Assembly (NCBI GenBank): GCA_014871385.1
Contig: CM026426.1
Span: 18,134,119-18,198,118 of the forward strand
Length of the DNA: 64,000 nt
Origin: Ceratodon purpureus
Taxonomy: Eukaryota; Streptophyta; Bryopsida; Pseudoditrichales; Ditrichaceae
Direction: 5' to 3'
Under the pieces are notes generated by a model. It was not told where the DNA came from, did not search any database, and saw nothing but the letters and a program-made list of their open reading frames with translations. Of this stretch, positions 3,001 through 53,103 are shown piece by piece (the stretch's first letter is position 1; each line of letters begins with the position of its first letter). Position numbers and translations under genes: made by a program.

Positions 3001-3905
3001 GAGGTAATGTCAGCAAGGATTAACGAAGAACGCGGTCACGTACAGCACGGGTGTATAGAGTTCACCTTCAACACGGGGAGCACGGTTTTGTGGCCTGATC
3101 CCGATATGCTAGCACTGGATGACGACCAGGGGAAAGTCAGTGCTCCGTTGATGGACTTTTTTTCCCTCTGGTTTCAGATGTCGTTATCTCCAGAAATGTT
3201 GGTATGCCCATCAATTTTTGCCATCGAACTGCGGGATCTCACGAACAAGACTACAAAAATACATGCACTACAAGAATTCTCTAAGGAGTATTTTGGTCTT
3301 TGTCCTAGGAATTGGACTACGCTCATAGTCCCAGTCTGTGACTTCGAGCACTGGAGCTTAGCTGTGTTGAGTGACAAGGGATTCCTTAAGTTTGATTCTG
3401 GTTTTCTCCGAAATCCTAATTTCCATGGCCCTCAGAAGTTTCATGAGGCCCTAGCAAAGGTCTGGTGCATAGGAATGGGTCACATGCAGGGCTCTACTTC
3501 ATGGAGAAAGGCATGCGACATTAAATCTTGGGTGCACATGAAGTGTCCACAACAAAGTGATACTTTCTCTTGTGGTTATTATGTTATGTCTTACATGATG
3601 ATGTAGACTAACCACGTGAAGCACATGGAATTACCAGGTCTGTTCAGCGATGTAAGTGCTGAATACCTCTCCTAACATCCTCTCCTTTGTATAGCAAGAT
3701 ACTTTTGTCTACATTTATGTAGCCACTGCCACATGTGTTTGACAGGGTTCAGTTGTTTTTGTGGCAGATGACCGACCTCTTTGGACATGATGCCGTTTTA
3801 GAGGTCAGATCCGACCTCAAGAAAGCTCTACTCAGCATATTACTGGCCAAAGACTCGACCTTGTACTGCTGTCGCAGCGACGTGCTAATTTTGGATTTAC
3901 ATTAA
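1..3905 (+). CDS. Ulp1-like (C48) cysteine protease gene of MULE A, 5' end outside window
   Basis: Multi-exon gene. Likely exons are 1-1084, 1127-1261, 1389-2231, 2443-2900, 3018-3651 and 3768-3905, all with GT/AG borders. An N-terminal C-x2-C-x12-H-x5-C finger lies near 187-265. The C-terminal exon holds the Ulp1 triad: His in FEHWSL (codon 3349), Asp in KFDSGF (3394), then Gln and Cys in PQQSDTFSCG (Cys codon 3571). Family members cleave SUMO-type conjugates or act as non-enzymatic domains. A TAG at 3604-3606 ends the ORF just after the catalytic domain, but the frame stays open past it to a good donor (GAT|GTAAGT, 3652), and the last exon resembles the last exon of copy B, so the stop probably truncates the protein. 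A poly-C run at 1058-1071 may shift the frame. It faces the MULE transposase at 7.1-11.0 kb, an arrangement repeated in element B. The family call is firm; activity is unknown. Confidence 0.75.
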
Positions 3906-32858: not shown

Positions 32859-34975
32859 TTATAGAAAACTTACATTATGTGGGCGTTGTCGGCGAAGACT
32901 ATCGTGATATACTTGAAAACATGAGTTTGGACCCTTGAAACACATAAACTTGTTTTCACAAGAAGCACAATAGTAATGTGGTCTCTTACTGTTCTTGTCT
33001 TTAGACTTATTGCATACCACGCAATAATTTCTTTTCTTCGAATGCATCGGGTAGCAATATCCGCGTCTTGCTCGTGAAGAAATGAAGTCTTCTTCTTCCC
33101 TTTGCCTCCAATTCCGTAGTAATGCTTCACATAAATCGGTCCTAAATTGGAGATGAGTCATTGGTTTGCGTACCGGCAATGAATTCTTGCATTTATCAAT
33201 ATAAATCAAAAACATATTCACAACGGTCATATCAAGTAAAAAAAAGAATACCCGATGCCACCATTTATGAGAACAATTTTGAGTGCAATATGATGCACGG
33301 AGTTGGTCAGCGACATCCACACCCCGCATGTGCGTTGTATATTCCAAATGCATACGCGATGTTGGAATATCCTCTCTAATGGCTCCATTTCGACGTGGAG
33401 CGGTATCCACGGGTAAACCAAGAGTGGTGGTTGGTTGTGCATGAGTAGATAGAAGTAAAACGGGCTTCTTATCTTTCCACACGACGGAAGCCATAGACCT
33501 TGATTCTTGCATTCTCCTGTCCATCCAACCTTACTCTTCTTTCCTATATGCCTTTGTATCTCTCAAAACAATAGGCACACCAACTCTATTTGAACGCATT
33601 GTCCCCGTCGCATAAATCAACCTTGAAAGTAAATCTCGAAATAAACCAACACATGTAAAAAAATTGTCCATTGCTATGACATGGCCTTTTCCCTCAATTG
33701 CACTTGCCAAATCTAAAACAAGATTATGCGCTAATTTTGGTTCCCCTCTAATAAATCGTTCATCATCCCGAACTACTTGACTTTTGCCACAATATATAGA
33801 GAAGTTCCACACAAACTTTGATTTTGAGCATGCCAAGCACCATACTTTTATGCCCCACTTTTGTGGTTTTTGAGGCATATGCTGTCTCAATGGGCAATAC
33901 AATCCTTTGTAGCGTATCATCATTTCATCGATTGTACAAAATTTCCCTAACTTCCACAACTTCTCACAATTCTCCTGCATGCTTTCAATCAACCATCGGA
34001 TTTGCCCTAACTTATCGTAGCCTGGTAAATCTCTCTCTCATACATACGTATCTAGATTGGTGATGTGCAAACATCTTGTCAAGGCCTTGAATTGAGTACG
34101 GGACATAACTCTTGAAATTGTAGAGCAATGGTAAATTGAACCCCGCCTATGCCAATATGACTCAACGTGTGGTTGACGCTTCATACCAACATACAACCAT
34201 ATAGCCATAAATGCCTTCAACTCTCCCATCGTAATTTCCACCCACCCCTCACCCCCCATTGTATTTCCATCATTGCCTACCGCCGTCGCGTAACGATTGG
34301 TTTCTTTAACAATGTCCCGTAAAATGTGATGTGTCCAAAAAATTTCAAACAATTGCAACATAGTGGGTAGAGACCTCCAAAATATATTGGACCTGGAAGC
34401 ACCTTCAAACTCTTGAGGCTTCGGGTCATAAGTGAAATAAGTCTTGTTCCATGTTGCGTCGCGGAATACATATTTTATATTGTTGCAATCTTCCACTTCT
34501 CCTCCGTCATTGTCTTCGGCACTAAAAAATTCATCGCTTTTGAAACCCTCACTTTCAATCTCCAATGTTGGAAATGCATATTCATCATACCTTTGTCTTC
34601 TCCTTGACTATTCAATATTTTCACCTCTATAACGGATCCCAATTTCAAAAGGTCGATTTCTACCATTGCATGTACCAGCGTCAATAAACTCCTCTAATTC
34701 AGAATTATGCCCACCTCAGTCTGTGGGGACTGCGTCGTCAACCCCCATCCTCCTCAACCCACGAAATGTTCCAAATACGCCATGTACTCCTTCAGACCCC
34801 CTATCCCCCATAACGCCCTCCCGAGCCCCCTCACCAACCTGGAAGCCTGAATGAGCTGGTGGCACCCTATAAAGCGGGGCGCCAAATTGCTCCAGGCTGG
34901 AAGGAGCCGTTGGCTCAGCTTCCAATCCTGAGCTGCAATCTCCATTGGCCCTCCGCTCGGCACCACCTCTACAAC
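32859..34975 (-). pseudogene. piggyBac transposase, catalytic and C-terminal part
   Basis: One continuous minus-strand frame from about 34716 to 32859 broken only by nonsense codons (TGA near 34716, TAG after RYRGENIE near 34608, TGA near 34038, TAA near 33528). The DDD residues are visible: Asp in TIDEMMIRYKG (33927-33929), Asp in IAMDNFFTC (33666-33668) and Asp in RGVDVADQ (33315-33317). The C-terminus ends in the Cys-rich finger CVVCNKSKD ... HYYCASCENKFMC typical of piggyBac. All four stops could be C-to-T changes from CGA, CAG, CGA and CAA. The enzyme normally excises at TTAA without footprint. The MULE insertion at 34976 removes the N-terminus, which continues at 52.4-53.1 kb. Confidence 0.88.
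34967..34975. repeat. Target site duplication of MULE B, left
   Basis: CTCTACAAC directly precedes the MULE terminus GGAGAACGC and recurs at 52400-52408 directly after the other terminus. Nine bases is the standard duplication of Mutator-like elements. Confidence 0.95.
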
Positions 34976-35219
34976 GGAGAACGCTAAATGCCATGTAGTG
35001 GTGGCGGGCCCGGCCCTCGCCCGCCAGCCTGGAAGGCCACGTCGCGTGTCCCGTTTTGCCCGCGATCGCGCCGAGGTAACTTTTCCCGCGTCACGGAACA
35101 CTGAGGTCTCCTCCACCCGAGACACTCGGTCGGGGCGTGACACAACGACTTGTGACACTGCCACGCTGGCACACCCAAGAACTGACCGGAAAAAACAAAA
35201 CTCCGTGACGTCACGATGA
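34976..35219 (+). repeat. Left terminal inverted repeat of MULE B
   Basis: 244 bases, matching the complement of 52157-52399 with roughly seven visible differences and one A-run indel (about 97% identity). It starts GGAGAACGCTAAATG, continues through a GC-rich block with CGCGATCGCG, contains two GTGACAC words (35137, 35152) and ends at the perfect palindrome CGTGACGTCACG (35204-35215). Confidence 0.95.
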
Positions 35220-38200
35220 AAAACGACTGTACAACAGAGTCACGATGTCACTACGGCTTCCATTCGGACAATTTAGGTCTCAGGGTTTAGGTCGTCTCTT
35301 TCGAGGTTTGAATTGCGTCTGTATGTGCTTCTTTGCCCGTTTTCCTAATATGGTTTTGCCTGATCTGTGTGCTTGCCGTGTGCAATGGAAGCTGTACCAG
35401 AGGTCGGCGTAGGAGGCGAGGAAAAGGTCCGTAGTCATGCTGATGGTGGTGTGGACTCAAGGAACGCCGATATACTGAGACAGCAATTGTCGAGTATTGA
35501 AGATCGGGTTCAGTGCCCCCCCCCCCCCCCCCCGGGAGTCTTTGGTCCCCGTGATTTGAAGTGGGAGCTGGAGTATCGCCCTCCCCGTGGAGAGCACAAG
35601 AAGAGCCATGTCGTTCAGCAGTGCTTCATCCCAACTTATAGAGTGGCTGACTTTGTCGATGGCATGCAATGCGGACGTGAAGGGGCGCAATGCAAGTTCA
35701 GGCCTAACAAGTAGAATAGACGACTTAATTTGTCGAAAGGTGGGCCTCGAGCTGCTCTTAATTTCATCAGGTATGAAACTTCTTCCCATTGTACGTTTAG
35801 TGTTCCTTTCTTACATCTGTAATCGCACCCATGAGACTGCCATGCCATTTCTTCGTTTAATGAAATGGTGTTTGAAATACTGGTTTCCCTGTGCTTTGGG
35901 TCCGCTGGAAGTCTCGCCCGTTTGAAATGTCCGCTTTTAGGGTTCACTGTCACGGGCTAGTGCCGATCACTTAATGCAGTCACGTACATTGTAGGATGTC
36001 ACCTCCATTACAATGACGGAAGAACAGAGTCACTACACAACAATTGGCCACTCATTCTCATATCGTGTTGTTATGGTAGATATAAATGCGAGTACGGGCC
36101 AAAAGATTACTCAGGAATTGTTAAGCCAATCACGGAGGAATTGCTGGCTAGGCCGAGAAAGAAGCTGCGAAAGCCCGATGTACCTGCTGAGGGGAATTTG
36201 GTTGCGCCCACTAGAAAAGCAAGAGCTAGGCGAACGAAGGCAGCCGAGGGAAGAAAGCCCCCTCGAAGATTTAAGTCAAAGACTCCAGCTGCCACTGGCG
36301 ATGCCATGGACTCGACGGTGGAAAATCCGGTTCAGTCACCGAAGAAACGGAGGGCGAGAAAGAAGAAAGTATGTACCGTTGAAGCTGCTGAGCCAGATGG
36401 AGGAAAGGTGGGATGCTGTGCTACCATGCTCCCGGACTTGAACGAGATCCCCATTCCATGCGAGCCTGATGTCCCACCTCCGAAAGTCGTTAAGAAACGG
36501 GGTCCTAGGAAGAAGAAATCCGACGCACAGGGAGAGCCCGGGGTCGCAGTCTCTACCAGTGTCACAGTAACTGGGGCTCAAGGTAAACCTACTAAAGGCC
36601 GGGTGTCGAGGAAAAAAAAAGATCCAGTCATTGAAAACGGTGACACTGACCATCACTGTTGTAGTTTAGGGTCACTGTCCTTGCAGTTGGAAAGCGATGC
36701 ACTGATGAATACAGGTGGAGGGCCTTCTCTTCGCGGATCCTCTACGGCCTTAGTGGACGATGTGGGCTCAATTGTTGACCCCCCCGAGTCAACTCCTCCG
36801 CCGAGATTGCAGGCTGCAACCACTAGAAAGTCCCGGAAAGTCACCCAGAAGAAGACGACAGTAAACGTAGCACTCGAGAATCAGACGCCCCGATTGCTGC
36901 CTGAGTGCTTCCTTACAAGTGACTCACAGACGTCAACGGCAACGGACATTGGTCTGATGCTTTCTGCGCTCTGTGACACTACTGGAGGACCGGGTTGTAC
37001 CGAACATTGTCAGGGAGAGGTAGTGGATCCCGATGAGGCACTCCCTTTCGAGCTGGGCATTAGAAAAGGTGACTGTACTGCAGGTGCACTACCGCGGAAA
37101 AAGGGTGTAAGGGACTCTAAAAAAAAATGGGGAGGGTCTATCAAGCGAGGCTGCCTGGCCCAGTTCACTGTAAAAAGTTTGTTGTACTTACCGCATGTCT
37201 CTGAAATCTGTATTATTCAGGAGAAACACGTGAACTCGGACGGCTTGGTAGTGCATGGAGGGATGAAGGTCGGGGATAGAAGTGCATTCTCTGCACATCT
37301 ATCACCGGAAATACGTGCATTCGTGGAGGACTGTCTCCGGAGAAAGGATACCGTGAGCCAGATAATGAGAAAGCACTTGGATATGTTAAAGAAGTATCAG
37401 GCAGAGGGCAGGGACATCACCACGGATTTGCTACTGTCTACGAAAGACATTCGAAACATCTCTGGGAAACTCGCACAGGAAACATATATGCTTCACAAGA
37501 ACGACGCACAGAGCGTCAGAATGTGGGTGCAGAGAAACCCGAAAAGGTGTTCCATTACACTGAGTCTAACTAACATAAACCCGTACCATTACCTGGTGAA
37601 TTAAACGGACAGAATATGCCATTTACCATAGGAATACAAACACCGTGGCAGAAGAAGATGATGCTCCAACATGGACACCGTGGAGGTATCTCCGTTGATG
37701 CCACATTCGGCACTAATGATAAAAAGGTACGCTCTTTTCACACCTCAATTAAGTGTTGTCCTGTTCCGAACCGGACACTGTCGTCGCTCCTATTAATACT
37801 GATTCAAGTGTCCTTCGAATATGTGACATTGTGACACTGTTAACTGTCCGTGCTTTATGAATCGGTGACACTGTCATGGAACTGTACTACGCTGACGGTG
37901 TATTCGTTTCTGTGATGTAGTTTCGGTTGTACACACTCATGGTCTTTGATGAGTGGCACAATGGTGTGCCGGTTGCTTTTATTCTCACGTCCAAGTGTGC
38001 GGAGTCAGACTTGAAGCCGTGGATGGTTTCTCTTAACGATAGGATGATAGCCGAGCAGCCAGACTGGAAACCCTCAGGATTCATAGTGGACTGTGCCCAG
38101 GGAGAGATTAATGCTATCAAGTGAGTACCACGTCTATAACCTACCCTGATATGTGCATAATTCTCGTTGAATTGACGTTCTCTTGTTTTCAGTGTCACAG

Positions 38201-39596
38201 TTCTGGTCCAGGAAAGTATGTAGGCCGTTTATACTCAACTCAGTCAATGGTAATGTAACAGCGACACTTGGCCCGAGACCGCCATTTTCTTGTGCCTCTG
38301 GCATGTGCGTCGAGCGTGGCAGAAGAATGCTTGCTACAAGATTGCAGATTTGCCCCGTAGAGCCGCTATCTTGAAGGAATTGGGGATGATGATGTACGAT
38401 CGCACTTCTCCCCGAGGAGAAGACAGCAAGTCCTAGGCAGAGTTGAAGATCGAGGAATTAGAGAAGAAATTCCCACAAGAATCCGAGTTCTGGGAATACA
38501 TGAAGACTTAATGGCTTGATAAAGTACATGTAGCACGACGTGGTATCCGTATTCCTCCGGAAGGCTCTCAATTCTCACTAAATACCCTCCAAAGTAAACC
38601 ACTCCGTGTTCATTCCCACGAAGACCTATAGTTTTCCTCCTTTTAGATCCTAACGGAAATCACCATCCAGATCCAACCGTATTCCGTCTTTCGACCGGTT
38701 GGCCGAATCCGGTAGTTTTTCCCTCGTTCCTATTTTCCGGTTTTTTTAGACTAGTGGCCGGTTCCCACTGATCCGTCTATCCTTTCAAGTGGCTGGATTT
38801 TCCACCGTCCCGTGACTTAAAGTGGCTGGACACCCCACTGTTCCTATCTACCACCCGAGAAGTGGAGTAATAATCCTTCCGTATGGCTAGGTACCGGTCC
38901 GGATAGCTACTCAGTGCCGGCTATGGATACGGAACTCATACTACAATGACATCACCTTATGGCTGTACGGCATTCTAACTATATCATCTCTCTTCCGGAT
39001 TGGTTCGCAGTAGGACATCCGGCTTTTATCCCATCTACAGGAAGCGACCGGTCCGTTTCCGGATCCCGGTGTACACACGGCCCTCCGTGTCCTTAAGACT
39101 ACCAGCCCTGCTGCAGTACGTCTCTCCTTCCCTCCGGACTCCTTCCGGTACTGGGAACCGTCAACACTCGACGCTTGACACCCCCCCCCCCCCCCCAAGT
39201 CTCTCCGGGCGCTCTCCAGACTATCCCACTGTTCAACACTCCTCCGGAACCCTACTGAAGACAATAGTACCAACAAACCAGAAGGTAACGGACTTGTCAG
39301 CAACCGGTTGACACAATAATTCTAAAAGTATATTCTCAATTGCAACAACAAAACGGCGTACAAAACAAGGCCCCGGCCTTGGAAAAACGTCCTGCTTAAA
39401 TACTAACACTTATCGATCCTAAAGCGACCAAGTGGCCCACTGAGATCCGGAAATTCCGGATCTTGGATCCGGGAATCCCGGACCGGTGGCCGCCTTCTAT
39501 TCCTAGTTACTGCCGCTATCTATCCGGATGGGCAGCCGGGTGCACTTGAGCCCCATCGTTAGTCGCTACCCTTTTATCCGGTCCTTATCCTAACTT

Positions 39597-41468
39597 CTAC
39601 TCCTTGTGCTTATCGAACCGGGGACTGTGCCGGGTTCCATCCATCTGTTCCTTCTTCTGTACCTTCTTCAGCCTCTTCAGCGAGGGGCCTTCTTCCGGAG
39701 CATCAGCTGCCGACGGGTCGCTGGCCTTCCGGGATCGTCCTGCTTGAACCGCCGGGGATGGAGATCGTGCCGCCACCGGAACTGCGCTCAGATCCACTTG
39801 GAGATTTTCTGGGGATCCCTGTACCGGCATAAAGTCTTCCGGTGGTGGGCCTTGGGCCGGTTCCAAAGGGATGCTTCCGGGGTTAACAGTCTCGATTACC
39901 GCCAAATTGGGCAGAGTGTGCAAACTGCTCAAGGTATCCGGAATAGGATCCTCCAGCAACTGTCCTATATCCTGTTGGACTGACCGGATGGTCGACCGTA
40001 CCGTCGAGGCTGGAGGTGGCACCGGCGCCGGTTCCCTGGGTGGGGCCGGTAGTCTGGGCTCCTCCCGATCTGCCGGTGGCTCTGGTGGTCCTGACGGACC
40101 GGCCTTTGCGGCACTGATGATCTCCACCATGTTCTTCATCTGCACCCAAGTGTCCCTCATCACCTGCGTCCGGTCGTGCATGAACTTCACAATCTTCGTT
40201 ACAGTCGAATCCCGCTGACGGGTCAAGAAGGCTTGGTAAACGGCGCACTGATTGGCAACATCCACCGGAAGGCCTAAAGTGGCCTTGATCTCGACGACCG
40301 ACTGGATGGCTTCGGCTGCCCGGTCACGGGCGTCACTGTAATCCTTCTGGGCATCACGCACCTCCTGCTCGAGCTTGTGAATCCTCTCCCGGTACTGCTC
40401 TAGCCGGTCCATGTGCTTGGTCTGGAGACTGGCCAAGTCCCGGTGTTTGCGAAGAATATTCAGGCACTCCTCCAACCGGTCCGAACCCGTAAGGGCAATT
40501 ACCTCCTTAGCCAACCGGTCCTCCGTCTGCCTAGTCGACTGTAGGAACCGAGCATACGTCGACACCTGCTCCGAAAGGTTAACTAAGTCCTGGCACGGGT
40601 CCCCGGTGTGCTCCGGTGGTCCGGTGGGTTTTTGGACTTCCGTGTTCAAGGTTCGCTTGGTCGGGGTGGGAGTCCGAGGTGATCCGGACGGCTGTCCCTT
40701 CTCCGGGCTAGGACGGGGTCTCTTAGCCGGCGTCGGGGAGACCTCGATAACATCATCATCATCGGTCTGATCGGACACTTCTTCCGGTTCGGCGTACTGC
40801 TGCAGGCTCTTGATTTCATCGTACTCCCGGATCTCCTTAGGGCTCAACAGCCCCCGGTGACGGTAGAGGTGAATGAGGAAGGACGGAAGGCAGGTGGTCT
40901 GTTTCTTGGTCTTCCGGAGATTGGCTACCTGCCGGTCAACTATCGTCTTTATCATGAGGCCCCAATCTACCGAGAACTCACCGATCATGGCCCCAATGAA
41001 AACGGACGCCCACTTGATGGTTATCCGTTTGGGCTTTTCCGGATGGAAAATAGGGTTCATAAACCCTACGACCCTCCGGGCCTCCGGATCCGTGATGTCA
41101 TCCAGCTCCCATCCTTCTCTCCGGTCTCCGGGCCCCTTGATATACCCCCACACAAACTCCCGGGTCTCCGGCGCTGAGATCTCTCCAGCGTTCTTGAAAC
41201 CATACGTCTCCCTCCAGAGTTGTGCCGTCCACTGCTCCGGTTCTCCCCGGATGGTTCCTCGATTTTCGGGATTCTTGACGAGGATCTCATGAGCCGGAAG
41301 GGAATGTTTCCAACCCCATGCCTTGTCCAGTAGGAGCTCACAGCCCATGGCTTCTAAAGCGGTCCGGAGGAGCTCCTTCTCGTCGTCGTCTACCGGCATC
41401 AACGGCATGACCCGTTGTACCCTGAACAACTGTCCTTCCTCCGCCGGTTCCTTCCCCTTTCTACCCAT
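39597..41468 (-). CDS. Gag-like coiled-coil protein, 623 aa, intact
   Basis: The longest undamaged ORF of the window, starting MGRKGKEPAEEGQLFRVQ. Residues about 1-210 form a globular region (REFVWGYIKGPGDRREGW, GFMNPIFHPEKPKRITIKWAS, VDWGLMIKTIVDRQVANLRK, CLPSFLIHLYRHRGLL) that resembles the globular domain of proteins annotated as putative plant transposon/retroelement gag-like proteins; this is by impression only. A D-rich, then Pro/Ser-rich linker follows (about 230-300), a coiled coil with many Glu/Arg/Gln at about 305-410, and a Pro-rich tail with a basic end (KRLKKVQKKEQ). There is no CCHC knuckle, protease or polymerase. The intact frame suggests a recent insertion. The function is probably particle or nucleic-acid binding, but this is unproven. 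Confidence 0.7.
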   Translation of the reverse strand: MGRKGKEPAEEGQLFRVQRVMPLMPVDDDEKELLRTALEAMGCELLLDKAWGWKHSLPAHEILVKNPENRGTIRGEPEQWTAQLWRETYGFKNAGEISAPETREFVWGYIKGPGDRREGWELDDITDPEARRVVGFMNPIFHPEKPKRITIKWASVFIGAMIGEFSVDWGLMIKTIVDRQVANLRKTKKQTTCLPSFLIHLYRHRGLLSPKEIREYDEIKSLQQYAEPEEVSDQTDDDDVIEVSPTPAKRPRPSPEKGQPSGSPRTPTPTKRTLNTEVQKPTGPPEHTGDPCQDLVNLSEQVSTYARFLQSTRQTEDRLAKEVIALTGSDRLEECLNILRKHRDLASLQTKHMDRLEQYRERIHKLEQEVRDAQKDYSDARDRAAEAIQSVVEIKATLGLPVDVANQCAVYQAFLTRQRDSTVTKIVKFMHDRTQVMRDTWVQMKNMVEIISAAKAGPSGPPEPPADREEPRLPAPPREPAPVPPPASTVRSTIRSVQQDIGQLLEDPIPDTLSSLHTLPNLAVIETVNPGSIPLEPAQGPPPEDFMPVQGSPENLQVDLSAVPVAARSPSPAVQAGRSRKASDPSAADAPEEGPSLKRLKKVQKKEQMDGTRHSPRFDKHKE

Positions 41469-41667
41469 TCTGCTAAGTCTTCCTCACCGTCACTCCGGTA
41501 ACACCTGCACGCACGATCCTCACCACAATCCCTCACCTAACGGAAACACTTCCGTCTCACCGTCTCTCTCCTACCGTCCAACCCTAACTGCGCCCTTCGC
41601 CGTGGAACCCAAGGACCCAGCGCGCCACAAAATGACAAAAGAAAGGAGGAGCACGGCTGCTCTTCCT

Positions 41668-41678
41668 CCTTTTATACA
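41668..41678 (-). promoter_or_regulatory. TATA box of the gag-like gene
   Basis: TGTATAAAAGG on the minus strand, about 200 bases upstream of the ATG at 41468. Further upstream are a repeated GGTGGTTACCCTTAAGT (41804 and 41825 regions) and several GGTCGYAGC words (41720-41775), which could be upstream control elements. Confidence 0.6.
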
Positions 41679-43083
41679 TGCCTTCACGCCCACCCGTTCG
41701 TAGCTCATCATGACGGACGGTCGTAGCCTTTCATCATTGGACGGTCGCAACCGGCGGCGCTTTAATGGTCGCAGCCATTCTTCCCGCGTGCATCGTACCT
41801 TTCGGTGGTTACCCTTAAGTCTGCGGTGGTTACCCTTAAGTTCTGTCACACGGACGGTGCTTCCTCTCCTTCACCACAGACGACCGGATCTCACCCGGCT
41901 GACCTTCCGGTTCTCTCTATTTTATTCGGCCAACCGTCTTAACCGGTTGTTTCACTTATCTAAGTAGTACTTCCGTATTCCTAACACAAAATTTTTAAAT
42001 TTCTATCATTTTCCTACCGGAATTAGTATTCCGGTGTGTCAACCGTGGAAACTACTTTCTACAGTACACATGTGGGTAGTGGGTTATAGGAACTTATCCT
42101 ATTGCGGACAGGACACAAACGCGGCCATAGAAGGGTACCATGGTTTCACCAAATCAATTTTACGATCCGAGAGAAGGAGGATGACAGGTCGAAGGGTGGA
42201 CTGGTGTATCACTGCATTAACAGAAGACGTCGTTGATCACTACTGGTACAAGGATTTGCGGAAAGAGAAAGGATTTATTGACAACAAGAAATGTCAAGAT
42301 ACAGTGGTTGACTCTATTCTGAAGGCCCGGGCCATTCCGGATGATGACGTGACATTACCACTCCATGAAGGTGACACTGCATTAGTCACGTCCACCGAGC
42401 ACAGGCATCTGCGATACACTGTGCATAATCCTGGATCTGAGTGGGGGATGTGCACTTGTGTTTGGGCGCAGCGTAGCAACATGTGTAAACACCATGTCAA
42501 GGTTGTAATCATGATGCACCCAGAGATTGCAGAAGGTACCATAGCCCGTTTTTGCGGACGGTTAGCTGGTAACATCAACGGAGGACTACGTCAACTTCTC
42601 ACTCCCCAACGTGTGCAGCCACCACCAACAGTTCAGATTGAGACACCTTACTCAGCTGCGTGCCCGTTACCTCTGAAACCAGTGTCACAGAACTTAGAAG
42701 AGGTTCTCAGTCAACAGGTCATACAGCTCGGGGAAGAGGTGAAAGGTGACACCGTCCTGATGGAGCATCTTGTGGCTGAGCTCAATCAGACACTCGGAAA
42801 AATTAGAAGAATGAAGGCGGAAATAAAAGTGGTGCCTTGCATCCTATGGAAGGGGCGCCCGTGTTTACTCTCGCAGATGACGCTCAGGGTTTTAAATTGG
42901 CCAGGAGGAGAGACTTCCTTGAGAAACCGAAGTCGCATGTCGTCAGACGTCTTTAGGGTGAATATATGTCTTCATCAATATATTACGGGCAGTACTAAAA
43001 GCTTCACGGGTAAGCTACCTTTAGGGTTCTATATAATAAGAAATGCGAGAAGTGATTCTTTCACTTCGAATGAGGGAACATAG

Positions 43084-45859
43084 TGTTTTCTTCACAGCGC
43101 CCACAGTCGCTTCAGTCATCCGAGGTCGTAACGGAATCATGCGTCGATTCGATTTTGTACTTGTTATCGAGATTTCTGAGGAGGTCCTATGGTTATTGTT
43201 GTCGTGCTGTTTTCTTTGAGCGGAGTTTTTGATTTTCAGAGGACCTGAGAGATGGGTTTTCTTCACGCGTTCCCCGGCGGCGGACAGAGTGCCATCGAAG
43301 AGTACTGGGAGTAGGGCGCTCCGGAATGTGGGTGAGCGCGCGAGGACTCGAGGTTCGAGACGTCTCCACGGAAAACCACCGACGTCTCCATCCCACGAGA
43401 AGGTCCACTATGCTTGTCAATGCACCAGTGTTGCTGAAGAAGTAGGGGGGGACGTTGGTGGTGGTGCCAAAGGTGAACTGAACTGGGTTCTAGAGCAATT
43501 CTACGGGGGGCTATGCGAGGAGGAACTCCACAACATGAGCGCATTTAGTTCGTAGAAACGGGAATCCGTGAAGACAGGTTATGTTAGGCAGCGCAGAGGT
43601 GCTCTGTTGTAGGGTACGTGACACTGAAACGTCTACCGACCTTTCCCACTTTAAGATATAGCCGGTAGGACAAACTGTGCTTCTTCTGCTTAGGCGTTTG
43701 GAAATATTTCCACGCATATATTGGAGGCTCGCTTTGAATAAATTTGTAACACTGCCATTTCCGTAGATGTCGGATTTCATTGTCTACCGCATTTGAGAAA
43801 TTCTTCCTCCTCCCCACTTAATTTGCACAGGCCTCTCCTTGTTCACGCCTTGTTCAACACCTATCTTTATGTAAACGGTATCTGAAACCTCATGGGCCAC
43901 GACTCACTGTCCAGGGAGTCAGTGCCACGGAATGCGTACAGAAGGTAGACGGAATGTTTCTAAACTGTGGATGATGTGAACCGTTTAACAATGGACTCTA
44001 CGAATCTTACCGGATAAAAGATATCGTTGTACCATATTCTACCGTACAGAACTTTTGTTCATTGATAGTAATTAAAGAATAGAAGACTAATCAATATAAA
44101 TTTGTAGCATGTAGAGAACATAAAGATAAAAATGCCCCTTCACAAAAAAAACTTAATGGAATCCTAAAAAAATGGGTGTGTTCGAATGTATACGTATTTC
44201 TTATAATGTGGCAAAATATTTCAAGCAGACTACCCGTTCTAGAGAAGGAAATAACTAATATTTTGATAATTTTAAGAAAGGTTAGTGACCTAACTTCTAT
44301 GTATTAAAGTTTTAAAATTTGTGAAACGATAATATGGGAATACACTTCATTTGTTGATCTATAAAGGTAAGACGAATTTTGATGGAAATTAAAATGGTCT
44401 TCTAAAGAATAGAAGACTAAGTAATGTCAATTCGTGGCGTGTATTCCAAAAAAAAATAGATTGCACATTTTTCAAGAATAAAAACTAGTTCCTATAATAA
44501 TTGGGTGTTAAGGATTGTAAATTTTGTTATGCTTGTAGGGAAATATTTCAACCACTCTACCCTTCCTAGAGAAGGAAAGAACTAATTCTCTGATAATTTT
44601 TAGAAAAATTAGTGACCTAAGTATTAAAGTTATAATTTTTGTGCAATGATAATCGGGGAATTGACTTCATGATGTTCATCTATAAAGGTATGACGAATTT
44701 TGATAGAAATTAAAATGGACTTACGATTGAGATACAACAATGCGCGATAATACTATCGGATAAAGTTATATTCGATAGATTGATAAATGGAATTTTAATA
44801 AGATGACCTCTTCCACAACTCGAACAATATAAACATTAAGTCTAGAGAACATTCATATGTAATGGGGGGTAAAGAATTGGAAATTTAGAAATCCACTAGC
44901 GATCTAGAAAAAGGGAAGTAAGTACAAGGGTATTCAAATGAAGAGAAAAATATACTCAAAATATACACAATCGAAGATTACAATTTATATGAATACAAAT
45001 AATATACTATAAGAAGGGGGGGGGTGTTCTTATTGTTGGGAAGGATTGGGGTTTAAGTAATATGATAAAGGTTCTTCATATTTTATTGAAGTGGAGAGTG
45101 GACCATAAATTTTCAGATGTATACATATGAACGGTAATGTAAACGGTGTTAGATAACAGGAAGAGAAGAGAAGGTTTTCCAAAAAAATTAATGGTAAACT
45201 TCAGTGATGCATATTCGGATAAACTCTCGGCAGTAGTTCTTAGTGAACGAAAAGAATGATCAGCCCGGTAAGTGAGGTGCAGCAAAAGTGAAAGGACGCA
45301 CAAATACTTTTATTTTTTGAAAAACAATCCACGGGGGGAAGGTGGAGAAGAAATAGAATGTTACTACATATTCCAAGAGAAGAAGACAGTGCTAAAGAAT
45401 TTGCGGAGATGTGTGGAGAGTAAGTCAGAATGGTAGTGTAACAGACGATGGTCTCCTCGTACCCTTAAAATAATTATGACCGTGATACATAGTGTCACAC
45501 AAGTGTCCTCATAACACAGTACCATATGAGAAGGGAAGCTTTTCTGTGACACTACGAAATAATCTTGCTCGGAACATTTTCGGTAAGCATTAGAAAATGA
45601 CATATACAGTATCAATATTAGATCGGTATAAGCCTCATAAAACGAGTCTTCGTTATCGTTCCACTGCATACCGAAAGTCCCAGGTCGAAGTATGCAGTAC
45701 CCGTGACACTACGGGATGGGTGACTCCCTGAGGTAATGACTATGTGACACTGTGAAGTCTGGAACACTACTACTCTGGTCTTAACCTTCATCTGTACTGA
45801 ACTTCCAATAAAGTTTGCTCTGAAATGATTTGAGCGCAGTTGTCGACTGTACTTCATCG
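43084..45859. repeat. AT-rich spacer of MULE B with a 325-bp tandem duplication
   Basis: AAAGAATAGAAGACTAA begins at 44074 and again at 44404. Both units continue in parallel through AGAGAAGGAA, TTAGTGACCTAA, ATCTATAAAGGTA and GACGAATTTTGAT to ATTAAAATGG (44397 and 44718), with many substitutions. Small ORFs at 43229-43555 (+) and 43584-43817 (-) have no recognised product. The region separates the convergent transposase and protease genes, as the A-rich spacer does in element A. Confidence 0.55.
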
Positions 45860-48800
45860 TCATTCGTTCTCGAAGCTCAGTTCGTCCTCATCTGAGTCGC
45901 CTGCCTTCAAAAGCCCTTCACCTGAAACACACATGGGAGCCCTATATCGAGCATCACGGCGAGATACATCAAGCTCACGGGCTAGCAATGCCAAAATCTG
46001 GATGTTAATGTCTTTGGCCTTGAATCGCTCCAGTAACTTCGTCTTCAAGCGTGCCTCTCTGTCATCTGCATCAAGAGCATGGAACTGAAGTACAGTCGAT
46101 GTTAGCAAGAGTAACAAATATAGCCATGTTCAAAAACAGACAAAACAGCGACTATGTGTAGCAAAGGGAAGGATAATTAGGGTGCACCACCTTCAAGTAA
46201 AGCAGAGCATTGCGGACTGTATGGTGCCCACATTCGTAGTTGCCAGGCTGCTGACTCACTTCTTCCTCCACCACTGGTACATCGTAAGATTGGACTCCTC
46301 GTAAGCATTGCCAAGCCCTGCATATACTCTTCACGAACTCTGCATCCAATCCCTTTGGACGGTGACACTCCGCCTTCTTGTAAAGTTGAAGTGTATCACT
46401 TTATCATACTGGAAAACCAGTAAGGCCCAATGGTCGTGAGCAACCCACGCGACAAGGATCTCCTTCACCTGGTGAATTTGAACAGGAGTAGGTGGCTGCA
46501 AGAACGTCCTCGCCCATTTCTCCAAGGTAGTGCTCCCTTTGATGAGGCTCTGTAGACAAGGACTCACACGAGAGGTAACAAATTGTATTTCGTGGCGGCG
46601 TATGCTAGGGTACTGGAAATACAACCTCGACATAACAAAGTCAACTACGTCATTTCTAAGGCCGGTGCGTACCCGCTTGAGATCATGGATGGCTTTAAAC
46701 CTAACCTCCAGCTCTTTCCCTTTCTCATAAAAGAATACCACTACCTCTGCTCCGTCTTTCTTGGCTTCACAACCGGGCAGTACCATGAGGAGTTTGTCTA
46801 TGTGTAGGTAGTTGAATGCCTGGGGGATATTCATAACACCTACATCGCCGATTGGAACAAGAGAGCAGTCCGGCCATGGTTCTGTCGTTGATCCACTGAG
46901 TCGTTTTGGCAACATAGGACCATTACCCCATGATGGCACTGGGGTAACAGATGGGACTTGAGAGTCTGCTGCATGTGAGAGAATCTGCAAGGCCGGGGCA
47001 TGATCTCCTTCGCTGACTCCCTCTTCTTTGAACAGCTTGCTTAAGTTCCTGACAGTCGATATGTCGTCGAGAGACCCGGATCCAATGCTCACGGATGTTA
47101 CAATTGAAATCCCTTTGTAAGGTGTCTGTAGCGATTCAGCAGCTGGTTCCTTCACCCATTGGCCAAAGCTAGGATCCTGTGAAAATGTTCCGCTTGCCAA
47201 ACCCATATCGTGACCCGAGTGTGCTGTGTTCTGGAACTGGCTCAGAGTGAGGAGGGAGTCCGTTGTTGGTGATTCCTGTTCAGCCATAAGTTCTTTCATC
47301 TCGGGGAACAGTGGTGGGGGTGCTTCTCTAAGTGTTGACTAGCCTTGAATGCTGAGTCCAGATCCCACCTTAAACCCGACTTGAGGTACTGGATCCTGTA
47401 GTGCCTCCAAATAGGGATCACTAATGACCACTTCACCATGTATGTCCTCCTTAATCTCCATAGCCGGTAACGTGTCCGTGGTCATCCCCTTCGTGACACT
47501 ACAGTAGTCCAATGTCACATTCTTGATTTCGTCATGTCCGGGATTCAGGCCTTGAGATCGAACGTCCACCTCAGCCCCGGATGTCTCTGTTCCATCCGCC
47601 GTCACACTTTCGTCTGACCCCCCCGGATGTGCGTCATGGTGTGCTTCCAGTTGTGGTTCCGCTCCTTCACACCGAGTATGTGCATCGTTCATTTTGCCAA
47701 TTTCGCACTCCATAGTAACTGCGACCTTCCCCTCCTCCGTCAGGCCACTCTGTCCTGCGGGCCCCAATCTCTCCTGCCCCATCTCCTCAGCAACCCCAGT
47801 AACGCCACGCACCTCTTCTGGATTATTATCATCCACTGTAGCATCTGTGACACTAACCACACTCTGCCGTGACACTGAAACCGTAGTGACAGGAGCAGTG
47901 TTCAGAACCACCCCCTCGAGTCCTGTTAGTGTCACAAGTTCTACATGCTCCCCTACAACCTCAAGCTCCACACTGTTGAGAGTGGTCGACTCGTCGGGCT
48001 GCGGTTTCTCCATCATGAATGTCGAGTTCCTGCTCATTGGATTAGACATTGCTAATACCTCCTGGTTTCTCCCCCCCATGGTCACGCACACTCTCCAGTG
48101 GTAGTCGTCTTCGACCTCTGTCGCCACTCCTACATCTTGCACCAAACTCCGAATTTTTAGCTGAAGTGCACCTACTCTAGGGGTCCAGTTAGGAGTATTA
48201 GCCATTGGCACGAACCCGGCGTCGTGCTCTTCCCGAATACGGAGAGCCTGCGACCAGATCCTCAAATGTTCAGACCAGTGCGCGTGGTCCACTGTCTCCC
48301 ACGCCCCAATGAACTCTAGCGGCTGGCAAACTGCAAAATCCTGTAAAGCCCTCAACTGCACTGACCGGATCCCCTTCAAGACAACTTTAATAACATCTTC
48401 ACCTCGACTGTCTGCCACGTCACGGATCTGTTTACCAACAGTATCCCGCAAGGAATCACCCAATGAGAACGCCAGGTTCGCGTAATGGTAGGCTCCTTCA
48501 TGGATGAACATAGTGAGAGCCTTTTGTAGCTTCCACGCTTCCACACTTCCTTGCAGTCCCCCCGAATGACGCCTTCATGCAATCCATACGTCAGACATGC
48601 AAGCTGCCTGTACAGCCCGTACTCGTTACGGAATAATGTTCTGAAGACATACAGTAGAGGTTCGGGCACCTCTCTTTCAGTCCGTATCGATTGTAGGACG
48701 GCCCTAACTTCTTTAGCCTCCGCCACTGTAGCAAAACATAGTCATTTACAAATCAGTCGTACACTGTAGGAATGTAGCAATTCAGAGATTCTAACAATCA

Positions 48801-51245
48801 TTATGAAAACTTCAAGTTAGCCTACGTAAGGAAGGTTACCATCATGTCGCCAAGGTAAAGGGGGTAGCCTCCGCAATAAGTCGTCGTCCTCGCAACATAC
48901 CCGCCAAATAGGGCACCACCCCCATACCACCTCTTCCACTAGCCGCCCATTCTTAGTTCTGAAATCGGTTTTGCCTCTCCGAATCAAATCTTCTTTCCTC
49001 TCGTACAAGGCAGCCAGGTACCGTTTCAACTCCTCCTGAAATTGAGCATAGTCGAATGTCCACTGTAGATATACTTTCAGCGCCTCCAGATCTTCGTACG
49101 GCACATCATTCTCAACGCTTTGCACCAACGAATCTATAGAGGAGGTCACTGCTTCTACTATTTCGACAGGGAGAGGGTTTGCCTTGTCACCCTGCACATT
49201 ACAAGAAGCATGCTATGTCACATCCCTAGATCGTGACACTAATATGGACCAAGAATAACTGTTTCTCAGTACTGTGACACGAAAATGAACGACCGAATAC
49301 ATAACGTGACACAGATACGTAGGTTTAGCTAGAAGGGAAATACCTTTCTGCGTATCCACCAGTACGCACACCTCATCAACTTATCCTTGAAGTCATCTGT
49401 CTTCACAACGGTAGTCCAACATTCCACGAAATCCTGTCCGCTTTTACACTGCCAACTCCATGGCAGCGTAACCTGCCCCTCGAATTGGCGGAGGAGATAC
49501 AGTGGAGGAATTATCGGCTTCGCAGGACTAAGTGGCTCGATGAAATCCTTCTCAACTCCTCCGATATTTCGAAGAAAACGCTCCTTGTGTGAGTTCTCTA
49601 GGTGAGATAACAGTCTGGCTCTCTCCCTAAAGCGCTCCTCCAGGGCAGGGTGGAAAGTTAATGGCAAGGAAGTACCCTTCCCGTCGGCCTAGAAATCATG
49701 TAGACGCCCGTTCCCTCTCCACTCGTCCTTGGTTATGACCATCGCCGGGAGTCTCTCCTCCACCAACTCAGGCGAAGTGGGATCCGTCTTGTTGAGCCCG
49801 CAATTGGGAACAGTGGCACTGACATCCATCGCCAGGGGACTGTGACACTGCATAGATTACAAGGCAATGTTACAAGTTCCTTGGAAATTGAATTCCACAG
49901 GTATTCCAGCCGCCATCGAAGTACACCTCTTACAGTCAACATTAATACTAGTAGCTGGGACCTCATCAGCAAATGTCACAGTCTTAGTTTTTTTAACTAC
50001 GTGACCTACAACTCGTGAACCCCTAAATATCGGCAACCTAAACCTATCCCGAAGCAAGGATATGGCCCTCTCTTTACTGTCTAGGGGATCCTTGAAGATA
50101 GTACGTACCTCCATAGCTGTATCGAGTCTATCAGACGACACTTCGTTGACCCTACACGCGGGCGGTGGCCTAATGGAGACGTGAAAAGTGTCGTCTTCCG
50201 GGTCAGCCTTTCGCTTGTTGAGCCCGGTGGTCCCTGCTCTTGTGATCCGTTGGCTAGCAATGTCTCCAAGTACTACGACCTCTTGCACGGGATGGCGGTC
50301 GTTCTTCAATTTTTTCACTGCCTCAATGTGCGCCACCATATCAGTCTGAACCGTTTTCTTCTTTACCGAGCCAACATCTGTTGCTGTCACATCCTTCCGC
50401 CCAGGGTAGGCCGGTCCAGGACTGCCTTTTGGCTTCTGCTTGGGTGCAAGACCACTGCTTGGCTTTTCCTTCTTCCCCTGCTTTTTATCAGATTTCTTCT
50501 TAGGAGGAGCTTCCTTCCAGAACAAGTCGGCGGGTGGTAAGGTGGCTGAGGGAGTCTGACCAGTAGGAAAGGGCGCTCCGTCTTTGTAGTCGTCGTCCTC
50601 GAATAACTCATCTTCCCCTAGATCTTCATTGAAGCCCTTCGCAGTCGCGTCTTCAACGACCGCCGGTGGATCACCTGAGTCGAGTGTCACAGAGTCACAA
50701 GTGACTGATCCTCGCCCACCGACAGCGACACCGACCTTAGAAAGGACCTCGACCTTCTTACCCTCTCCTTGTTTGAGGTCAGGATATGGGAGGAGAAGCG
50801 CACTTCTACCGTCCGGATACCTCGCCTGTGGACACCCTTCGACAAACCTATGACGGTTTAGCATCATTTTATTAGAGAAATGATTAGAACCGCAGTGGAT
50901 GCAAACGAAAAATTTACGAGCTGATCCCGGCTTCTTCTCCTCCTTGCACATGGTCGCGAACTCCACCAGCAGATCCCTCACTCGCTCCTCGCTCGGGTAA
51001 GTAACATTATATTATAATACCACTCTCAGTGTCACTGGTTCGGGGGCCATGTCTTCAGGTCTGTAGATATTACAGTCTGCCCCACATAGGACACAACGGG
51101 AGTCTCCCCAAGTGATGAACCTGAATGTATTTCTCCAGCCTATCACAGAACCGCACCCTCCAACACAGAACACAACTCTGAGGTACCAATCCTCCTCTCG
51201 AAAAAGAACCTGGTCTCTACAGTCAGAAAACAACCGCACACGCAC
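45860..51245 (-). pseudogene. Ulp1-like (C48) protease gene of MULE B, inactivated
   Basis: Exon-like blocks on the minus strand: 51245-51012, 50981-49857, 49667-49329, 49197-48817, 48726-46331 and 46349-46152, with a last exon at 46117-45860. The N-terminus has CVLCGADC and a C-x2-C-x13-H-x5-C finger (FVCIHCGSNHF ... RHRFVEGC) parallel to copy A. The middle matches copy A in WGWCPIWRV...LPPLPWRHD. The protease domain keeps His (AHDHWALLVF) and Cys (NYECGHHTV), but the expected Asp is Asn (VIHFNFT), directly before a frameshift at about 46385. Other damage: an 8-bp tandem duplication (48529-48544) that shifts the frame, and a TAG after GLSIQG near 47340. It is convergent with the transposase. 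No longer functional; family call firm. Confidence 0.82.
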
Positions 51246-52156
51246 GGTGAGAATGTAATGCGCAAAGCCCGCTTAGACGCAGAATGGACAAAGTAATTAA
51301 AAACCAAAACCCTAAAACTAACAGAACGCTATGCACATTGTGTAGGAAATTAGGAGATCATAGCAGACTCTGGACTGTCCACAATGCAAACCCTAAACAT
51401 ACAATGTAAGTACTCTTTCATGACTCACGTAGTGTCACACCCAAAACACCCTATAATTTCAGCCAAATCGTGCGACTAACTCGGAGAAGCCACGGGTTTG
51501 CAATGGCGGAATTCTGGCGACAGATGTAGCAAGACTCGAGGAATTCAATGACGAAGAATGCGTTGGACAGGAAAGGGTAGAAGTAGTTACAAAGAAAACA
51601 TACGTTGCTCACCTCGGTATGGCCCAGTAGCGGAATGGAGACTTTGAAGCTCCGTTGGCGTCGCTCCTTCGGATAACTCTGAGGTTTGAAATCTCAGTAA
51701 CAGAGCCTCCCATTGTTCCGACACGATAAAAGCACGAGTAGGAAGGCAAAAAAACAACGACCTAATTCAAAGGTGAAGAAATCTTACCGGCGCCAGCTGA
51801 AATAATGCGCCCACAATGGTGCCTCCTCCTCAAGACGTCGCCGCCGCGCTCGATGAGGGAAGTTAATTCGAAGGTCCAGCTTGAAGCCATTGCGCATTTA
51901 ATTTCGCAATTGAGTGCACCGATGATGTGACACATTGCACTCCTAAAGACAAAGGGTGCCATAAATCTCCAAAGAACACAAAACCCAACTGCAAAAGACA
52001 TACACACTGAACCCTAAGCTAACAAAACTAAAATGCTTACGACGATGCATGCCCCACATTGCGTTAGAATTTCTGAAACCCAATCAATCCGAAACACTGG
52101 ACCAGAAAACCCTAAACAATTTTGCGCCAACGGGGAAGAAGGTCTACAAAATGACA
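51246..52156 (-). promoter_or_regulatory. 5' flank of the Ulp1-like gene with telo-box-like words
   Basis: Between the gene and the right terminal repeat are ACCCTAAAA-type words near 51309, 51391, 52011 and 52107, and GTGTCAC/GTGACAC words at 51429 and 51925. The AAACCCTAA-like words match those upstream of the copy A transposase. Promoter function is inferred from position. Confidence 0.3.
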
Positions 52157-52399
52157 TCATCGTGACGTCACGGAGTTTTTTTTTTCCGGTCAGTTCTGGG
52201 GTGTGCCAGCGTGGCAGTGTCACAAGTCGTTGTGTCACGCCCCGACCGAGTGTCTCGGGTGGAGGAGACCTCAGTGTTCCGTGACGCGGGAAAAGTTACC
52301 TCGGCGCGATCGCGGGCAAGACGGGACACGCGACGTGGCCTTCCACGCTGGCGGGCAAGGGCCGGGCCCGCCACCACTACATGACATTTAGCGTTCTCC
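52157..52399 (-). repeat. Right terminal inverted repeat of MULE B
   Basis: 243 bases, inverted partner of 34976-35219. It contains CGTGACGTCACG at 52161-52172, GTGTCAC at about 52217 and 52231, CGCGATCGCG, and ends CATTTAGCGTTCTCC followed by the duplication CTCTACAAC (52400-52408). Confidence 0.95.
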
Positions 52400-53103
52400 C
52401 TCTACAACCCCGCCCTCTCCGCCCAGCCCAATAGTGCCCCCATCCCCGCCCTCCTCGCCCAGCCAATCAGTGGCCCTATCCCCGGCCTCGTCCCCAAAGC
52501 TCCCCGCTGTCACAACGCCTCGATCCCCGCCTTCCACGCCCAGCCCAAGCGCGCCCCGGTCCCCGTCGAACCTGACTCTCTCCCCGCTCCCTGGTGACTG
52601 TGTACCCGCCCTGACCCCTTCTTCGCTCCCCGCCCGCGCTGCATGGTCTCCTATCCCCGCCCGCGCTGCATGGTCTCCTATCCCCGCCCGCGCTGCATGG
52701 TCTCCAATCCCCGCCCTCGCTGCATGCAGCGAGCTTCCTTCCCCTCCCTCTCCCGCAGACTGCCGTTGTTGCAGGATCCGCCCCTCTCCTTGCAGTAAGT
52801 CTTTCCCTCTTTCCCTCAATGCCTCACCTTGCTCACAGAACTTCTCACCTTTTTTCCTCTTCTTGAACCTTGCATTGAACTTACAGACATCGTAGGCAGA
52901 TTCCTCAGGCCACCATAGTTCCTCCAAACTTCTTTCTTCCTGAAATTCGTAATCTCCCTCATCGAAGCTGTCTTTAGTGTGCTCCTCACAAGAACTCGCC
53001 CTCCCATATGCATCCTCTCCAAAGCTCTCTTCACTATGAGAGAACTAAGGGTTGATCTCTCTAATTTGTGCCTGTAATATAGCATGTAAATCTTCTGCAA
53101 CAT
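52400..53103 (-). pseudogene. piggyBac transposase, N-terminal part
   Basis: On the minus strand an exon opens after ATAATCTACAG near 53103 and reads DVAEDLHAILQAQIREINP, a TAG, then FSHSEESFGEDAYGRASSC and DSFDEGDYEFQEERSLEELWW, the acidic N-terminus expected before a piggyBac catalytic core. It continues basic (FKKRKKGEKF) and then into a repeated DHAARAGIG segment and a Gly/Glu-rich stretch that reaches the MULE insertion point at 52399. The frame to the downstream part at 34975 differs, so there is also a frameshift in the Gly-rich part. Confidence 0.65.
52628..52731. repeat. 27-bp minisatellite, about 3.8 copies
   Basis: Units start at 52628, 52655, 52682 and 52709, each CCCCGCCCGCGCTGCATGG plus TCTCC(T/A)AT; the last is partial and diverged. 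The period is a multiple of three, and the repeat translates as DHAARAGIG on the minus strand within the piggyBac N-terminal frame. Confidence 0.85.

Follow-up and report, generated by a model that had tools for sequence, protein, structure and literature searches.

How selfish elements tell their own copies from the host genome is known from few worked examples, of which the VANC proteins of VANDAL elements, marked by a DUF1985 domain, are the clearest. For two further transposon proteins, TnpA of Spm and MURA of MuDR, the recognized sites are terminal or subterminal. According to the available text of the reports, VANC proteins are encoded by the elements themselves, read private words and remove silencing (PMC5735166, PMC10398659), and the words are short and differ between proteins (YAGTATTAY for VANC21, AGTTGTCC/AGTTGTAC for VANC6; PMC5735166). 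The accessible part of a review adds that an Ulp1 domain is present in some VANC genes and that VANDAL/VANC elements lack terminal inverted repeats (TIRs; PMC13317346). Here we analysed a window of 64,000 nucleotides (nt) of the moss Ceratodon purpureus (contig CM026426.1, positions 18,134,119 to 18,198,118), to which all coordinates below refer unless a contig is named, and describe in it a Mutator-like element (MULE), MULE B (34976–52399), that carries the word GTGACAC along its whole length, genes included. The word is clearly kept by selection at the DNA level, and a second, different word is well supported for a sister clade of MULEs.

Direct counting gave 31 occurrences of GTGACAC or its complement GTGTCAC in MULE B without its nested insertion (approximately 38434–41960), a length of 13.9 kb, and 25 of the 8-mer GTGACACT/AGTGTCAC in 34976–52399; a first-pass annotation of the letters alone had estimated the same two figures, and all 20 motif positions that it gave were right to within 4 bases. 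The insertion itself holds no GTGACAC or GTGTCAC by direct count, again as first annotated, and the remaining 46,576 bp of the window hold four copies of the 7-mer where about three had been reported. In 300 dinucleotide shuffles of MULE B without the insertion, the 7-mer occurred on average 2.25 times (maximum 7) and the 8-mer 0.63 times (maximum 4), far short of the observed density, and the word came out as both the top-scoring 7-mer and the top-scoring 8-mer when MULE B, with the insertion counted in, was set against the remaining window. Together these shuffles and k-mer comparisons led us to reject chance or base composition as the cause of the motif density. The word is near-palindromic (GTG-W-CAC). 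With its preferred flanks the consensus reads CYGTGACACTR, as drawn from 158 non-TIR sites in five copies with 22 sites of the reversed word as control, and information is low beyond about 2 bases on each side. Words with one mismatch are barely enriched over reversed controls, the largest excess being 17 against 11, so that the word acts nearly all-or-none.

We then followed the word through the genome to which the window belongs (G000; 362.5 Mb in 151 contigs), the one genome used. A search with the TIRs gave 40 scored matches, from which ten further full elements were taken; with the window copy (W) they make 11 full copies that are 62–99% identical, that is, differ by up to 38%. Homopolymers excluded, GTGACACT is the commonest 8-mer in all 11 (25–34 occurrences each, as against 1–4 for the reversed word). 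The gaps between sites were no more even than under random placement in any of the 11, and even spacing was rejected on that ground. A search with a transposase segment gave 147 scored matches from 741 candidates. In four deeper lineages, represented by partial copies (pieces; n = 4), with 60, 62, 72 and 76% transposase identity, GTGACAC occurs 12, 13, 20 and 8 times per 8.5 kb and the reversed control 2, 3, 6 and 3 times. In all four, GTGACACT is among the three best-scoring 8-mers. The two most distant lineages also use GTGACAT (16 against 3 for the control, both lineages together), which looks like a slow drift of the word. All 11 full and four partial deeper copies thus carry the motif. 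The first-pass description of it as private to the element therefore holds as to privacy and fails as to level, the word being shared across a superfamily whose transposases are as little as about 60% identical.

Genome-wide, the single word is not in excess (14,080 occurrences against 14,012 for its reverse, which also sits in minisatellite-like runs); at 0.039 per kb it is about 46 times rarer than in MULE B. Pairs of the word 5–35 bases apart number 551, against 181 for the reversed word. We examined the first 100 listed pairs, which follow genome order, are clustered and do not form a random sample; 88 had a family marker at a distance of no more than 15 kb. Twenty-five such markers were used, together covering 0.75 Mb out of roughly 100 Mb, and 23 were accompanied by a pair. 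Over the same genomic range, 3 of 29 reversed-word pairs lie near a family marker. At a contig end (G000:C1:2403-3933) GTGACACT recurs regularly, about every 380 bases, probably as a satellite unrelated to MULEs.

Comparison of copies shows the sites to be held while their surroundings diverge. Between W and copy J, 19 of the 27 non-TIR sites of W are kept, as against 8.9% of all W 7-mers (this retention table covered 7 of the 11 copies). In a MAFFT alignment of five of the 11 copies (W, B, E, H and J, the five that also gave the consensus), a method that can favour matches at a repeated word, the seven core columns at the non-TIR sites of W are 81–90% identical in the four other lineages and the flanking columns mostly 50–65%; complete identity across the five lineages was seen at 12 of the 22 non-TIR sites free of gaps, compared with 268 of 10,730 windows of seven bases. 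Over the 11 copies the sites fall into 81 columns, of which 13 are occupied in all 11 and 16 in one only, and despite this turnover the number of sites per copy stays at 31–46. One site reverses its orientation through the centre base in three copies.

Selection on the word reaches into the coding sequence. In open reading frames (ORFs) of at least 380 amino acids from nine of the 11 copies (W was left out as degenerate and F without weighty reason), the word has a density of 2.0–3.95 per kb, compared with 1.8–2.6 per kb in non-coding sequence, and these long ORFs hold 14–26 sites per copy. All five stop-free combinations of strand and phase are used. Shuffling of synonymous codons reduced the 2–14 sites per ORF to means of 0.4–2.9, and in 22 of 35 ORFs none of the 200 shuffles reached the observed count. 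At fourfold degenerate sites where the amino acid is unchanged, copy A of the family was compared with four other copies: motif positions were identical at 13/13 against 297/687 elsewhere for copy J (p = 2e-5), 13/13 against 380/752 for copy E (p = 2e-4) and 11/13 against 259/689 for copy I (p = 8e-4), three tests that share copy A and most of its sites and hence are not independent. On the strength of the synonymous shuffles and the fourfold-site conservation, we rejected peptide constraint as the cause of the exonic word.

The sites are given here with strand and with retention counted among the 11 full elements, window copy included. Those in the TIRs (35137–35143 and 35152–35158, +; 52217–52223 and 52232–52238, −) are kept in 11/11, and in all 11 copies both TIRs carry two sites, about 150–163 and 166–177 from each end, with a third site in six. 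The other 27 of the 31 are internal, in exons, introns and spacer. Coding sites lie at 36559–36565 (−, 11/11), 36640–36646 (+, 8/11), 36973–36979 (+, 11/11), 42371–42377 (+, 11/11), 42682–42688 (−, 11/11) and 42746–42752 (+, 8/11), and intron sites at 37831–37837 (+, 5/11), 37865–37871 (+, 11/11) and 38192–38198 (−, 11/11). The last had been annotated at 38191 as overlapping a splice acceptor; we read it as intronic because the conserved transposase segments end at 38121 and resume near 38254. One site lies between the genes (43618–43624, +, 11/11) and four lie in the spacer (45492–45498, −, 5/11; 45546–45552, +, 8/11; 45703–45709, +, 8/11; 45744–45750, +, 10/11). Within a second gene, gene 2, we found sites at 46362–46368 (+, 8/11), 47493–47499 (+, 8/11), 47847–47853 (+, 6/11), 47869–47875 (+, 8/11), 47929–47935 (−, 5/11), 49842–49848 (+, 11/11), 50684–50690 (−, 10/11) and 51029–51035 (−, 11/11), with three more in an intron of it (49233–49239, +, 10/11; 49274–49280, +, 2/11; 49306–49312, +, 5/11) and one in its upstream part (51432–51438, −, 8/11, plus 3 with the centre base flipped to GTGACAC). 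The right end region holds one (51927–51933, +, 10/11). In copies H and I (L053-L056, aligned at about 47897), the region of a long gene 2 ORF contains a tandem motif array with a period of 18 bp, a length that keeps the frame.

MULE B is a member of the Mutator superfamily. Its TIRs (34976–35199, +, and 52176–52399, −) are 224 nt long and 97% identical, with the motif at 162 and 177 from each end, and it is flanked by a 9-bp target-site duplication, CTCTACAAC (34967–34975 and 52400–52408). Direct 9-bp repeats flank 10 of the 11 copies, and in the C8 copy the transposase, as presumably spliced, matches the MULE-type DDE transposase family PF10551 (E = 5.2e-11; 43.3 bits against a cut-off of 27.6). 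The exception is copy F (G000:C1:22590745-22604114), the flanks of which are inverted rather than direct; its 200-bp flanks are identical at 198/200 positions as reverse complements, so its inverted repeat reaches past the TIR into the flanking DNA. Transposase segments, compared for conservation in copies J, H and E, are the best-conserved protein parts of the element. All lie on the + strand: a conserved N-terminal segment with 70–80% amino-acid identity in these copies (35364–35711), an ORF segment with a basic N-terminal region (35961–37601), a segment with the presumed first catalytic D (GGISVDATFGTNDKK; 37574–37731), a segment containing FDEWHNGVPVAF...FIVDCAQGEINAIK (37921–38121), a segment containing FLCLWHVRRAWQ that is interrupted by the nested insertion (38254–38433) and a segment with the presumed catalytic E and, by eye, a SWIM-like zinc motif (42055–42828).

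Gene 2 lies on the opposite strand (approximately 45863–51272, −) and is degenerate in the window copy, with in-frame stops and indels. In the C8 copy, which is 95% identical to the window copy, the long exons of gene 2 are open. The first long exon encodes a C2HC zinc finger (CIHC...H...C; 50832–50903, −) that matches zf-C2H2_11 in 7 of 8 members (best E = 4.2e-4), and the last encodes an Ulp1-like (C48) protease domain, which has its start (HDHW...) in the segment 46334–47338 (−), has its catalytic region broken in the window copy and matches PF02902 in 6 of 10 members (best E = 1.1e-5); the H, D, Q and C positions are invariant in 10 members. Both halves of the self-encoded zinc-finger/Ulp1-like protein that the first-pass annotation had read from the letters were thus found, and their order, strand and exon ends suggest that they belong to one gene.

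Several other features were observed in and around the element. A palindrome, GTGACGTCAC, stands about 220–230 bases from both ends (35205–35214 and 52162–52171) in 9 of 11 copies and was not found in the other two, H and I. The spacer contains direct repeats at 44073–44722, spaced 321–330 bp and 75–92% alike. Within the nested insertion, an ORF of 628 amino acids (39597–41483, −) gave only weak Pfam matches, below the cut-offs. Directly left of MULE B, at 33531–34607, are the stop-split remains of a piggyBac-type transposase (DDE_Tnp_1_7, E = 6.4e-37 for the one piece scanned).

The window also holds a sister element, MULE A, with the same layout of a transposase and an opposite-strand gene with a C2HC finger and an Ulp1-like domain. 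Its transposase region (7200–9439, −) has 29–49% amino-acid identity to that of MULE B by segment and 33% over the longest match (7200–8051). Its finger region (CLYC...H...C; 84–387, +) resembles that of MULE B (hhalign E = 5e-6, probability 86%), and its Ulp1-like domain (2986–3603, +) matches both that of MULE B (E = 5.3e-6) and PF02902 (20.9 bits against a cut-off of 20.7). GTGWCAC occurs twice in its 11.1 kb. A different candidate word, TGTASTGC, occurs 13 times between 184 and 8690 (8 on the + and 5 on the − strand; shuffle mean 0.59, maximum 4) and four times in the rest of the window. This word was chosen after looking at the window and was then tested genome-wide, where it forms 182 pairs against 46 for the control. 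We compared both words with finger genes, using 84 and 77 of 150 and 150 finger matches, hand-typed, on contigs C1-C6 below about 54.3 Mb. The word pairs used here and with the markers below were again the first ones in genome order and clustered. A scored A-type finger gene stood no more than 15 kb away for 58 of 100 listed TGTASTGC pairs and a B-type one for none; for 100 listed GTGACACT pairs, the corresponding figures were 73 for B-type and none for A-type genes. By clusters, 16 of 45 for TGTASTGC include an A-type and none a B-type finger, and 17 of 29 for GTGACACT include a B-type and none an A-type finger. Each word therefore segregates with its own finger and transposase clade. With a MULE A marker set of 99 of 142 transposase matches (lower-scoring ones dropped), TGTASTGC pairs concentrate at relatives of MULE A with 60–69% transposase identity (9 of 13 markers). 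A second word is thus well supported, by word pairs rather than full elements, for a clade related to MULE A, and the suggestion of the first-pass annotation that sister families might carry different words was borne out for the one sister clade examined. Some MULE A relatives, for example at G000:C6:20817221-20840370, seemingly extend over 25–35 kb with two or three finger genes each, TGTAGTGC pairs lying between the finger genes; these relatives are possibly giant MULEs.

We consider it an even call that these observations reflect self-recognition of the VANC type, in which a reader encoded by the element would bind its clade's own word and counter silencing. Each MULE clade would mark its whole length, exons too, with GTGACAC-T in clade B and TGTA[G/C]TGC in a clade A. 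The reader would be a DNA-binding protein of the same element, most likely the product of the opposite-strand C2HC-finger/Ulp1-like gene; it may coat all sister copies in trans and so keep them out of host silencing, and its protease domain may strip SUMO from silencing factors. Acting at many places along the element, such a reader would tolerate turnover of single sites, so that the total amount of bound reader may count for more than any single position. What favours anti-silencing by an element-encoded reader is the VANC precedent together with the Ulp1 domain of some VANC genes. From the selected word, the finger/Ulp1 gene and the sister word, the anti-silencing or recognition system proposed in the first-pass annotation gains partial support; its link to VANC is one of analogy, with no DUF1985 found in the six exon ORFs scanned.

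A number of results weigh against this reading. Synonymous shuffles reached the observed count in 13 of the 35 ORFs, and the fourfold test between copy A and the close copy B (15/16 against 730/932) was not significant. Of the 100 listed TGTASTGC pairs, 42 lie more than 15 kb from any scored A finger, and 29 of the 45 clusters have no scored A finger nearby. Around 17 close MULE A relatives (at least 70% identity), not one listed TGTASTGC pair occurs inside 40 kb, so that TGTASTGC is weakly supported as the word of MULE A itself. The finger scores 13.6 bits in the first member, against a zf-C2H2_11 cut-off of 27, and a single weak C2HC finger is short for an 8-base word unless it dimerizes or other residues help. 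DUF1985 gave no match up to E = 1 in six exon ORFs of the C8 copy, and hence there is no Pfam sign of homology to VANC. The MULE B word is stable down to 60% transposase identity and so changes little over a large divergence, unlike the fast-changing VANC targets, and its sites, for the most part scattered, are about as frequent in coding exons as in other parts of the element, whereas published VANC sites are non-coding tandem repeats. Finally, the finger gene and the transposase sit on the same element, so co-segregation cannot tell which of them reads the word.

That last point leads to the transposase as reader, which we regard as unlikely, if the most serious of the alternatives: the TIR copies of the word would be core sites, and internal copies would load transposase for synapsis, self-regulation or MURA-like hypomethylation. 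The 27 internal sites in exons, introns and spacer argue against it, as cut-and-paste transposases usually require terminal sites only, and the clade A word, linked equally to transposase and finger, decides nothing. It draws support from the two sites at fixed distances in both TIRs of every full copy, from the transposase segments being the most conserved protein parts, which matches the stability of the word, and from the report, in its available text, that MURA causes TIR hypomethylation (PMC10398659). An exploited host protein is improbable. On this account the elements gathered binding sites of a host factor, for transcription or insulation, that keeps the chromatin open; clear selection on the word names no reader by itself, and the near-palindrome GTG-W-CAC could suit a host dimer. 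There is no genome-wide excess of the word over its reverse, as counted above, and a single host factor would not predict the different word of the sister clade, a difference that an element-encoded reader explains. A signal at the RNA level, for splicing, export, packaging or siRNA avoidance, could use the many sites in introns and exons and is nevertheless highly improbable: in long ORFs the two orientations, taken against the coding strand, are nearly balanced (85 and 78), TIRs and spacer carry sites too, and one site flips its orientation through the centre base between lineages. The use of both orientations in long ORFs likewise led us to reject a signal in one transcription strand. That the word is a functionless by-product of tandem duplication, gene conversion or biased mutation is barely credible, and repeat spread was rejected for most sites, given that the 18-bp-period array of copies H and I stands against sites that are mostly single in unrelated flanks of low information, with a conserved core, on both strands, in all usable reading frames and conserved at synonymous positions.

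Set beside the described systems, the MULE B family resembles VANDAL/VANC, as far as the available text of the reports describes these, in being a large MULE with a family-private short word present many times per copy, in having related families with different words and a second protein beside the transposase, and in the tandem word array of two copies. It differs from them in its 224-nt TIRs and in a candidate reader that has a C2HC finger in place of DUF1985. With Kaonashi/KIU, the Ulp1-bearing MULEs of flowering plants, it shares a MULE-borne Ulp1-like protease domain; compared by description only, these are given in the accessible part of the review as MULEs that lack TIRs and have their motifs in non-coding sequence, and that part mentions no finger for them (PMC13317346). 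As with Spm TnpA and MuDR MURA, which are transposon-encoded and, in the available text, lower the methylation of their own families (PMC10398659), the MULE B reader would be encoded by the transposon; unlike theirs, the sites of the MULE B family span the whole element. The word GTGACAC was not found in the open-licence literature searched, and among the titles listed there none reports a private word for a MULE of mosses or other bryophytes.

Tentatively, a more specific form of self-recognition can be drawn: a whole-element address code, in which a clade-specific C2HC-finger/Ulp1 SUMO protease would free its own copies only, over their full length, through a cognate word spread across TIRs, introns, spacers and synonymous exon sites. 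Such a code would be conserved deep within a clade and switch between clades, in a moss host that lies outside the flowering plants from which VANC is described. The MULE B family may thus be a further, possibly independent, case of self-recognition, with synonymous-site selection, two clades, two words and two similar fingers. The word–reader pair is directly testable, and the 147 scored transposase matches form a large natural series for decoding the specificity of the finger; the protein would be a candidate natural tool for directing a SUMO protease to selected DNA.

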